Source: a virus
Length of the DNA: 21,349 bases
Strand: one strand, 5' to 3'
IMG/VR virus record: IMGVR_UViG_3300025086_000307
Span: 1-21,349 of that record
The translations under genes and the position numbers were made by a program. This document shows positions 7,756 through 16,432 of this stretch, one piece after another. Position 1 is the stretch's first letter. Each line of letters opens with the position of its first letter. The notes below the pieces were generated by a model. The model had not been told where the DNA came from, searched no databases, and saw only the letters and a program-made list of their open reading frames with translations.

Positions 7756-7770
7756 AATTAACCTCAGTAC

Positions 7771-7824
7771 CTGACCCCCGTTCCATGGTCAGATTGCATG
7801 CGTCCCTGATGGGATGAACGGACG
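7771..7824 (-). promoter_or_regulatory. Glutamine-II ('Downstream-peptide') riboswitch-like pseudoknot
   Basis: On the minus strand, CCGTTC (plus 7816-7821) pairs with GAACGG (plus 7778-7783) to form P1. Inside it, TCCC/GGGA around an ATCA loop (7803-7814) forms P2, followed by the string GGGACGCATGCA. Then CTGACC (plus 7787-7792), inside the P1 loop, pairs with GGTCAG (plus 7771-7776), outside P1. This makes an H-type pseudoknot next to the GAGG ribosome-binding site of the 34-residue peptide. The CGTTCA-(stem)-GGGACG core, pseudoknot layout and short downstream gene match what I know of the glutamine-II riboswitch family of picocyanobacteria and cyanophages. A rival pairing of CGTCC (7820-7824) with GGACG (7801-7805) would break P1 and P2. 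Glutamine binding is inferred, not shown. Confidence 0.75.
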
Positions 7825-13485: not shown

Positions 13486-14170
13486 GTTCAAAAAACGCTG
13501 GCATACGAGCTGCTTTTGTGTCGGAAAACTGTGGAGCTTTACCTTGATACATTAACTGATCGCTCGCATCCAGCCAAAATTTTTTGTCTAAATATTTATC
13601 AGTTGTATTTGTTTTGAGGGGTTGCACTACCCAGTTAATAGTTGCCTTCCGAAGCTTATCCAAGCTAGAGCTAGGAACAAGACCCAACTCAGCACATACG
13701 AGGCTATTTGTCGCAACGTGGATTTGTTCATCTCTGGATATATCAGCTGATACTGTTCTAAGAGCAGCGTCACCAAGAAAGCGAAACATAGGTAGTAGAA
13801 CAAAGAATATAGCTCGCTCTGCAACGAGGGCTTTTGTGATAGTGTGGTCAGGGTGATCAATCCAAGCATCTCTTAACCTCTTGGCTTCGAGCTCTGATTG
13901 AATGTCTGCACCGTGGGCATCAACAATGTAGCCCAAAGCGAGATCATGTTTAATCTCATCTTGTACGTTTGACTCAAGAAGTGTCCTCGCTGCTGTCGGG
14001 ACTGTCCTCTCCAGTCCCTGAGAAATAAATTCTCCAACTGGTAGCTCCATATGACGTATTGCGAGTGCACGCTTGATGGTTTCTTCAGCACCTTCTTTTA
14101 ATTCTCCTTTCGTAGGTTGGACCGGTGTCCATGTTCTTTTTCTGTTTTGTAATTTTGTGTAGGGGTTCAT
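13454..14170 (-). CDS. nrdB: Compact ribonucleotide reductase beta-like protein (ferritin-like, di-metal)
   Basis: 238 residues, against about 320-375 for most NrdB proteins. A ferritin-like ligand set is visible with correct spacing: Glu42, Glu72-x-x-His75, Glu118 and Glu148-x-x-His151, the first/second and third/fourth sites each 30 residues apart, as in class I RNR beta subunits. The position four residues after the first His, which is the radical Tyr in E. coli NrdB, is Leu79; the nearest Tyr is Tyr81. A Tyr (237) is next-to-last, where a radical-transfer Tyr would be expected. The gene overlaps the alpha-subunit stop as ATGA, so the two are coupled. I infer it supplies the radical to the neighbouring alpha subunit. 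An unrelated di-iron protein is the alternative. Confidence 0.72.
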   Translation of the reverse strand: MNPYTKLQNRKRTWTPVQPTKGELKEGAEETIKRALAIRHMELPVGEFISQGLERTVPTAARTLLESNVQDEIKHDLALGYIVDAHGADIQSELEAKRLRDAWIDHPDHTITKALVAERAIFFVLLPMFRFLGDAALRTVSADISRDEQIHVATNSLVCAELGLVPSSSLDKLRKATINWVVQPLKTNTTDKYLDKKFWLDASDQLMYQGKAPQFSDTKAARMPAFFEHANTNLPQYA

Positions 14171-15543
14171 TGTTCGCAGTCACATTTAATTTTGTCATCA
14201 TTAATAATACCATCTAAGTAACTGTCGATGTCAGTGTCTGCTAAAGCTGCGTAAGCATCAGACTTATCCTGAACATCACCCATTACCTGAAGGCTGTAGT
14301 ACAAAGAGGTCTGTGAGCTTCCTAGCCACTCCTCTATAAATGCTTCATTATACTCTACAACATCACTCCAAGAGTTGAAGCTGTAGCCGTGAAGCAATCC
14401 TGTCCTATCGAGCATTGTCATGATTTCGTCTGCTACACGCTTGTATGCGTCCCATCCTACTTCACTCGCTATCTCAACGTCTCCGTAACTTACTTGTGTT
14501 ACTCCGAACTCGCCGGAGTCTCTGTCTACGGTTCTAGCTATTGGTGGTGCTATCTCGGGTGTGCATGTAAAGCCGTCTAGGTCTTTACTGCGATAGCTGC
14601 AACTGGCAGTGGGTGCAATAGCGAACGCCCTTACCATATCATTATCTCTTGCTACTTGAGCTGACTCAAAGATAGCATTGTTTAGTGCCCAAGCTAACAT
14701 CCCTGCTTCATTGTTAGCAGAGAATCCTTTGTTAACTAGCCTGAGTGCTTCTCCAAACTCTTCGTAACTTATTCCGTAACGTCTGAGGAGGTTGGCAAGA
14801 CCGAGCACTCCAAGCCCAACTTGTCTGTCGACTTCTGGGGCAAGGTATTCTCCAGATTCTCCAACACCTGTCCGGCCATGGAGATTACACAACTCGGACA
14901 TGCCTGATACGAAAGCCTCTTGTAGGTTGTCGAGTGTACAGGCACCGAGATTGACATGCTGTAACAAGCAAGTTCCACGTGAGGGCAAGTATACTTCAAG
15001 ACAGACGTTTCCATAGATACGCTCCCCGGTTTCTGTGTGTCTGATTTTATTGAGCCAGACGTCTCCTGATTTGATTCCATATATTAAGGCATCCTTTGTA
15101 GTTTGATTAGCAAACTTCCACATGTCTTCATCAATGTCGACACATCTCTTGACCCAAGGGAGAGCTGTTCTGGAAGCTGTTATAAATTCTACCACATCTG
15201 GGTGGCATAGGTCAAGGTGCAATACTATAGCACCATTTTTATAGGCTCCACCTCTACGAAGTATCTCGTTGAGAGCAGAGTAAATTTTACCAAAGCTGAC
15301 TGGGCCGGTAGCCACAAGTCCTTTGTCATTTGTTGATCCGGCTGGTCTAAGCTTAGATAGGTGGATTGCACACCCTGCACCAAATCTTAGTGCATGGCTT
15401 GCGAACCTCCAGCTAGCTTCAATGCCGTTTGGACCTTCCATGCTGTCTTCAACAACGAAGGTTGTGCATGACACGGGTAGTCTTGATGTAGGATCTTCTA
15501 TCCAAGACTCGACCCTGCCAGTACGGGAGATTAAGTTAGACAT
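14167..15543 (-). CDS. nrdA: Ribonucleotide reductase catalytic (alpha) subunit, compact class I-like
   Basis: 458 residues, far shorter than E. coli NrdA (761), with no ATP-cone. Visible active-site elements in order: Cys26 (PVSCTTF, first redox Cys), the RFGAGCAIHLSKLRPAGS block (about 53-70), Asn179-Val-Cys181-Leu-Glu183 (thiyl-radical Cys with its Asn and Glu), Cys202 (second redox Cys), the APTASCSYRS loop (about 310-319) and a C-terminal CDC (454-456), which is the thioredoxin-reducible pair. Tyr415-Tyr416 look like the tandem tyrosines used for radical transfer in class I enzymes; class II enzymes lack them. It reduces ribonucleotides to deoxyribonucleotides for phage replication. Podovirus enzymes of this type have often been labelled class II (B12-dependent); the Tyr pair and coupled beta-like gene argue for class I. 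Confidence 0.93.
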   Translation of the reverse strand: MSNLISRTGRVESWIEDPTSRLPVSCTTFVVEDSMEGPNGIEASWRFASHALRFGAGCAIHLSKLRPAGSTNDKGLVATGPVSFGKIYSALNEILRRGGAYKNGAIVLHLDLCHPDVVEFITASRTALPWVKRCVDIDEDMWKFANQTTKDALIYGIKSGDVWLNKIRHTETGERIYGNVCLEVYLPSRGTCLLQHVNLGACTLDNLQEAFVSGMSELCNLHGRTGVGESGEYLAPEVDRQVGLGVLGLANLLRRYGISYEEFGEALRLVNKGFSANNEAGMLAWALNNAIFESAQVARDNDMVRAFAIAPTASCSYRSKDLDGFTCTPEIAPPIARTVDRDSGEFGVTQVSYGDVEIASEVGWDAYKRVADEIMTMLDRTGLLHGYSFNSWSDVVEYNEAFIEEWLGSSQTSLYYSLQVMGDVQDKSDAYAALADTDIDSYLDGIINDDKIKCDCEQ

Positions 15544-15765
15544 TTAAATAATTACTGCGTTTTCTAATAGTTTTTTCAATGCGTTGGACAGTGCAAAGTT
15601 CTGTCTTTGTAAAGCAAGGAAGACAGTGATTATATCTTCCTTCTTGTCATAATTCTTACGTATATTATCTTCAATTACTCTCATCTTGAAGTCCTGTTCC
15701 GTTGTCAATGGCAGAGGGAACTGGTGTCCAGAGAATTGGTTCTTGTCTTTTGGTATCATAGTCAT
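15544..15765 (-). CDS. nblA: NblA-like phycobilisome degradation adaptor
   Basis: 73 residues. The segment LPLTTEQDFKMRVIEDNI (about residues 18-35) followed by KEDIITVFLALQRQNFALSN (42-61) and LKKLL (63-67) matches the NblA pattern: L-(S/T)-x-EQ-x-F-K-x-(R/K)-x-x-E-x-x-I, an acidic turn, then a helix with xxRQxxxxxN and LL. NblA is a small two-helix protein (usually about 60 residues) that binds phycobiliproteins and hands phycobilisomes to Clp protease. Phage versions are known. The first 95 bases overlap the end of the exonuclease gene in another frame; the ATG at 15765 is the best start, since a start after the overlap would lose the EQ motif. The stop abuts the RNR start (TAAATG). Assignment is by motif only. 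Confidence 0.65.
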   Translation of the reverse strand: MTMIPKDKNQFSGHQFPLPLTTEQDFKMRVIEDNIRKNYDKKEDIITVFLALQRQNFALSNALKKLLENAVII

Positions 15766-16432
15766 TTACTGTGAGTATTCTGGCTAACCTAGCGTTGAGT
15801 AAAGCATCGTCTTCTGTCAATCCTTTATCTGTAAACGCCTTGACAACTGTAGACCAGTTGTAGCCTTCTTTGTTGAAAAGAGTTTCGGCTCTCTTCACTC
15901 CGATACCGGGGACACCGCTGTACCCATCAGTCTGGTCGCCTGCTAGCGTCTGAATCATGTGCCACTTAGCACCCTCTTCAGCAGTGATAGTTGTAGTGTC
16001 GGTCAGGTTGTATAGTTTGCCGGGGATCTGTCTCATATCTTTATCAGGTGAGACGATGGTGTTACCGGGGTGTGCAGTAGCGTAGATACCCATGGCATCG
16101 TCAGCTTCTAACTCTTTCATCACAATCACATCATATTGTATCCTTAGATTTCGTATGACACGTTTGTATCCGCAGGGCTTTTTTCTATTTCGATGACCCT
16201 TGTAATCTGGGGAAATTTTTTTCCTAAAATTCTTAGAGTCACTAAAAAATAGTATTGGTGTGGCAAAGTTGCCGAACTGTTGTTGTATGTTTGATATATC
16301 TCTGGTTACGGCTTTATATGCGTCACTGTAGTTTGATGTAACGAATATAACGTCCTCTCCATAGTCTATCTCTGTTTCGCAGGCTGCACAGCATTTGTAT
16401 ACTATGTAGTCTGCATCTATTAATAAATTCAT
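15671..16432 (-). CDS. 5'-3' exonuclease (T7 gp6-like, FEN family)
   Basis: 253 residues. Acidic metal-binding motifs of the FEN/5'-nuclease family are present: Asp6/Asp8 (LIDADYIVY), the YKGHRNRKKP basic arch segment (77-86), Glu107/Glu109/Asp111/Asp112 (ELEADDAMG), Asp130/Asp132 (SPDKDMRQI), and the helix-hairpin-helix GDQTDGYSGVPGIGVKRA (165-182). T7 gp6 degrades host DNA to recycle nucleotides and removes RNA primers. The conserved part ends at ILWTP, matching the LWRP end of T7 gp6; about 16 further residues read through into the overlapping nblA-like gene. It starts 6 bases after the DNA polymerase stop. Confidence 0.93.
   Translation of the reverse strand: MNLLIDADYIVYKCCAACETEIDYGEDVIFVTSNYSDAYKAVTRDISNIQQQFGNFATPILFFSDSKNFRKKISPDYKGHRNRKKPCGYKRVIRNLRIQYDVIVMKELEADDAMGIYATAHPGNTIVSPDKDMRQIPGKLYNLTDTTTITAEEGAKWHMIQTLAGDQTDGYSGVPGIGVKRAETLFNKEGYNWSTVVKAFTDKGLTEDDALLNARLARILTVNDYDTKRQEPILWTPVPSAIDNGTGLQDESN

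Follow-up and report, generated by a model that had tools for sequence, protein, structure and literature searches.

What does the short reading frame between a T7-like exonuclease gene and a ribonucleotide reductase (RNR) gene of an uncultured oceanic cyanophage encode, and what could its product do in the infected host? The question is raised by 21,349 nucleotides of viral DNA (IMG/VR record IMGVR_UViG_3300025086_000307, positions 1 to 21,349; hereafter the window), for which an original prediction, made from the letters alone, proposed an NblA-like gene. In the cyanobacterial model, NblA is an adaptor linking the phycobilisome to the ClpC chaperone; it has a helix-loop-helix layout, in which a conserved motif at the N-terminal end serves for ClpC and a second, C-terminal motif for phycobiliproteins (PMC7966870, PMC4103541).

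The coordinates given for the gene were right, although its strand had been left unstated. The frame is read on the minus strand, from an ATG at 15765 to the stop codon ending at 15544, and its 73-residue product is MTMIPKDKNQFSGHQFPLPLTTEQDFKMRVIEDNIRKNYDKKEDIITVFLALQRQNFALSNALKKLLENAVII; the plus strand of the same interval contains stops throughout and no open frame. Every element of the NblA pattern that had been quoted is present in this product (L20-T-T-E23-Q24-D-F26-K27, E32-x-x-I35, R54-Q55-N56 and L66-L67). The last 95 nt of the exonuclease gene overlap the ORF in another frame, and the RNR gene starts directly after its stop codon (Table 1).

Table 1. Features of the NblA-family locus, in window positions
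Feature	Position	Strand	Basis
NblA-family ORF, 73 codons and stop	15544..15765	-	ORF list; Pfam; PHROG; phage relatives
Probable start codon, ATG of residue 3	15757..15759	-	Kept in tested copies
N-terminal motif L-T-T-E-Q-D-F-K, counterpart of NblA L-S-L-E-Q-Q-F	15685..15708	-	Alignments and hhalign
Predicted helix 1, residues 22-37	15655..15702	-	AlphaFold2, 30-sequence alignment
Predicted helix 2, residues 42-70	15556..15642	-	AlphaFold2
T7-like 5'-3' exonuclease	15671..16432	-	Pfam 5_3_exonuc_N 8.2e-11; same neighbour in phage isolates
RNR	14167..15543	-	Pfam Ribonuc_red_lgC 3.6e-20

Translation probably begins at the second methionine. The upstream ATG (15763-15765) is not conserved and is missing in many relatives. 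The ATG at 15759 is kept: all 50 of 50 copies have TAT as the exonuclease tyrosine codon that overlaps it, compared with a background TAT share of 245/551 among the tyrosine codons of those exonuclease genes, although these copies are mutually related and do not count as independent events. This ATG is therefore the likely start, and the product would have 71 residues. A TTG at L20 and an NTG before the EQ pair were also considered as starts; the conserved ATG was preferred to both, in the second case because that codon is ACG in the window phage and several relatives.

The frame is a real gene under clear purifying selection. The mean base entropy at codon positions 1/2/3, computed over 53 distinct copies, is 0.53/0.15/0.83 for helix 1, which is still within the overlap with the exonuclease, and 0.60/0.22/1.15 for helix 2; the segment before LT-EQ is unconstrained in the NblA frame (0.97/1.11/1.19), and here too the copies are related rather than independent. 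Codon position 2 is thus nearly fixed and position 3 free, both within the overlap from LT-EQ onward and past it, which is the signature of a constrained protein. Relatives were found by tblastn in at least 37 phage records, all of them picocyanobacterial or uncultured marine phages among the matches listed, and by an IMG/VR scan at at least 241 loci; in the records inspected the gene comes immediately behind the T7-like exonuclease each time, a constant position beside genes of DNA metabolism. The idea that the ORF is not a gene and stands open by chance beside the exonuclease could draw on the overlap and on phage records that leave it unannotated, as those of S-TIP37 and S-CBP3 do, but it is refuted by the codon-position constraint, which extends past the overlap, by the conserved start ATG and by the number of IMG/VR loci, and we give it practically no credence.

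Assignment of this gene to the NblA family depends on its relatives. The best Pfam match of the window protein is NblA (PF04485; E 0.02), at 15.8 bits against a curated cut-off of 25 bits, so that the profile search proposed as a check returned the expected family at a single-sequence score under its threshold. The best PHROG is the unnamed PHROG 27006 (E 1.6e-15). Pfam NblA is matched by 13 of 17 family members (best E 1.5e-6), and its cut-off is exceeded by the copies of S-TIP37 (27.8 bits) and of IMG/VR locus L078 (29.0 bits); since the window protein lies below the cut-off and these relatives above it, membership rests on transitive homology. A profile of the phage family, run against 177,635 distinct PDB sequences, gave five matches at E <=10, three of which are NblA structures (2q8v, 2qdo and 3cs5, the 3cs5 alignment covering both helices); phmmer with the window protein alone gave zero matches to PDB sequences. 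When an alignment of 20 phage sequences was compared by hhalign with one of 20 cyanobacterial NblA proteins from a phylum-wide search, the two matched with a probability of 78.5 (E 1.7e-5, 49 of 50 columns); the best of 100 column-shuffled controls reached 11.3, and the reversed alignment 0.1.

Structure prediction points the same way. For the monomer, AlphaFold2 with a 30-sequence alignment gave the helical hairpin that had been anticipated, namely a helix at residues 22-37, a loop and a helix at 42-70 (mean pLDDT 72.8), and this layout and the size of 71-73 residues fit the NblA pattern of about 60 residues in helix-loop-helix form. Run with no alignment, AlphaFold returned a single long helix (pTM 0.31), which is uninformative. 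Foldseek found 0 matches to the predicted model in the PDB, a result that says little for a two-helix model of 73 residues and moderate confidence, and a fold search against viral structures gave only matches of E 2 or worse, which are uninformative for so short a model. The original prediction had named a missing NblA profile match together with a fold other than a hairpin as evidence against itself; what was found is a match, if a weak one, and a predicted hairpin.

Alternatively, the protein could have no relation to NblA and be a small helical phage protein that resembles it by chance in the L-T-x-E-Q-x-F segment. The sub-threshold Pfam score of the window copy, its equally weak match to the unrelated DUF2420 and some other small-helix matches among the relatives would suit such a protein. 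It would, however, have to account for the S-TIP37 and L078 copies that pass the NblA cut-off, for a short list of PDB profile matches that includes NblA structures, for a profile-profile score far above the shuffled controls and for a predicted fold that is the correct helix-loop-helix, and we consider it improbable. Judged by sequence profiles and a predicted model, the window protein belongs to the NblA family, even though its sequence taken singly stays under the curated Pfam threshold; the proposed identity is upheld through transitive homology and the predicted helix-loop-helix.

Placed among known systems, the gene is closest to the cyanopodovirus NblA group of PHROG 27006 (S-TIP37, S-CBP3, P-SSP2, P-SSP3, P-SSP7 and KBS-P-1A), with which it shares the sequence family, the slot after the T7-like exonuclease and the overlap with it. 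The window protein has roughly 40-53% amino-acid identity to those of cyanopodovirus isolates and carries the same motif. It differs in its short C-terminus, the long tail of the S-CBP3 and P-SSP2 proteins being absent, and in having RNR directly next, where many isolates interpose a MazG-like gene (gp32) or another small gene. With cyanobacterial NblA (PF04485; PDB 3cs5, 2q8v, 2qdo) it shares size, helix-loop-helix layout and the N-terminal L-x-x-E-Q-x-F, but identity is about 20% over 49 aligned columns and the second helix of the phage family has other conserved residues. The freshwater cyanophages Ma-LMM01, MaMV-DC and PaV-LD likewise carry an NblA, in their case against hosts that have phycobilisomes; their nblA is expressed during infection, with phycobilin loss, and in phylogeny it lies far from the nblA of marine and estuarine phages (PMC9602691). 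The view that viral NblA is known in a few cyanophages was correct as to its being known but understated its extent: as summarized in PMC9602691, the predictions of Nadel et al. (2019) extend nblA to 14 cyanopodovirus isolates, which cluster with an uncultured phage sequence, and nblA genes from marine viral metagenomes led to phycobilin loss in S. elongatus, while a passage in PMC12892361 reports NblA for 'many oceanic cyanophages'. The function of viral NblA in oceanic cyanophages is, by its citation, the subject of a 2025 article in Nature (Nadel et al.). The window gene is consequently not new; it adds a rather divergent member to a published group, and its small departures are the compact exonuclease-nblA-RNR order, common to its oceanic relatives, and the short C-terminus.

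That compact order, with nblA followed directly by RNR, is found in the window and in an oceanic sub-group of relatives (L005, L009, L015, L019, L024, L030, L036, L069 and L071), and a MazG-like gene lies between nblA and RNR in other lineages (e.g. L078 and L081). The NblA-like gene is not universal in T7-like cyanophages: in P-SSP6, NATL2A-133 and P-SSP10 (L214, L215 and L216; Tangaroavirus) the NblA-like profile had no match, and a DUF3310-type gene directly follows the exonuclease instead. In Synechococcus phage S-RIP1 (L227/L228, HQ317388.1, about 34752-34963) the NblA-like gene does not run in a single frame but is divided between two, either as a pseudogene or through a sequencing error in the deposited sequence. 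A search of Synechococcus RCC307-family genomes with the phage-family profile yielded one good match (L209, 1426-1713, minus strand), a picocyanobacterial-genome copy that scores 23.1 bits against Pfam NblA, higher than the window copy. It was rejected as a host nblA and is phage DNA, because it adjoins a T7-like polymerase, an exonuclease and a MazG-like gene; the region is possibly a prophage or an infecting phage.

The host bears directly on what the protein could act upon. The T7-like cyanophage context was borne out, the window also carrying psbA and hli. By its psbA protein the window is nearest to P-SSP7 (94.4%) and P-SSP3 (91.9%), by its capsid to P-GSP1, a phage of MED4, and by its polymerase to NATL1A-7. 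A psbA nucleotide tree that also took in cellular psbA places the window with P-SSP7, P-SSP3 and P-GSP1; this tree contained no Synechococcus podovirus psbA, so the host placement is a lean and not a proof. Phages recorded on Prochlorococcus carry the NblA-like gene themselves, namely P-SSP3 (MIT9312), NATL1A-7 (NATL1A) and, in a divergent form, P-GSP1 (MED4). Prochlorococcus has chlorophyll a2/b2-binding proteins in place of phycobilisomes and is without nblA (PMC7439483). In agreement with this, the Pfam NblA cut-off was reached in 0 of 151 Prochlorococcus genomes, and the phage-family profile, which does match in seven phage records, matched 0 of 200. Weak NblA matches in Prochlorococcus genomes (E 0.01-0.05) were rejected, all being below the cut-off and several containing stops; the only one inspected, L204, lies at the edge of another gene. 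As phages isolated on Prochlorococcus carry the gene and Prochlorococcus has no phycobilisomes, it cannot be concluded from the gene that the host bears phycobilisomes, contrary to what the original prediction held. Going by the grouping of its genes, the window phage probably infects a host that lacks a classical phycobilisome antenna.

Two side observations may be added. The minus strand of the window holds, at 7769-7823, a Glutamine-II riboswitch (Rfam RF01704) that scores 57.6 bits, the cut-off being 33; it is located between psbA and the capsid gene, shortly downstream of the former and upstream of the latter. The record of P-SSP2 (L003, GU071107.1) names Synechococcus WH8017 as its host; P-SSP2 shares the genus Tritonvirus with P-SSP3 of Prochlorococcus MIT9312, and its host field may be wrong.

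The reading that we favour, with a probability of about 0.82, is that the gene encodes a viral NblA-family ClpC adaptor that would deliver host light-harvesting protein to the Clp protease. The protein would most likely dimerise; its conserved N-terminal L-x-x-E-Q-x-F region would bind the host ClpC chaperone and its second helix a host light-harvesting protein, which would thereby be handed to the Clp protease. The phage may gain amino acids and lowered light capture during infection, and in a Synechococcus host the target would be the phycobilisome. The two halves of this mechanism do not stand equally. In alignments of the phage family the E, Q and F of the N-terminal motif are near-invariant, whereas in the second helix conservation falls on a different set, A-L-Q-x-Q-N-F-x-L-x-N, where NblA has L-Y-E-Q-M..R-E..Y. 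The hhalign alignment agrees with the NblA consensus in 6 of 17 columns of the N-terminal part versus 5 of 32 in the C-terminal half, and most of the invariant C-terminal positions of NblA (Y33, M36 and Y43, cyanobacterial alignment numbering) are not kept. The absence of phycobilisomes from the likely host genus also speaks against the favoured reading. With the motif kept almost invariably and the set in the second helix different, ClpC docking is the better-supported half and the choice of substrate the weaker one, though we infer both.

The same asymmetry lends some weight to a retargeted NblA, one that would still dock to ClpC and, in Prochlorococcus, a host without phycobilisomes or nblA, would deliver another substrate: residual phycoerythrin, a chlorophyll-binding antenna protein, a photosystem or some other host protein. 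Besides the strongly kept motif beside a non-NblA set in the second helix, the presence of the gene in phages isolated on Prochlorococcus and the grouping of the window psbA with Prochlorococcus phages favour this possibility. Yet the same type of sequence occurs in the Synechococcus phages S-CBP3 and S-TIP37, which do meet phycobilisomes, and, by the account in PMC9602691, an NblA from an uncultured phage clusters with those of cyanopodoviruses and nblA from the same data set caused phycobilin loss. We therefore regard retargeting as unlikely, if the strongest of the alternatives, and retain a ClpC adaptor for host light-harvesting protein as the preferred reading.

The window gene adds an uncultured oceanic lineage to those with a viral NblA. 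It also raises a useful question for the biology of these phages, namely which protein such an adaptor would degrade in Prochlorococcus, a host with neither phycobilisomes nor an nblA of its own.
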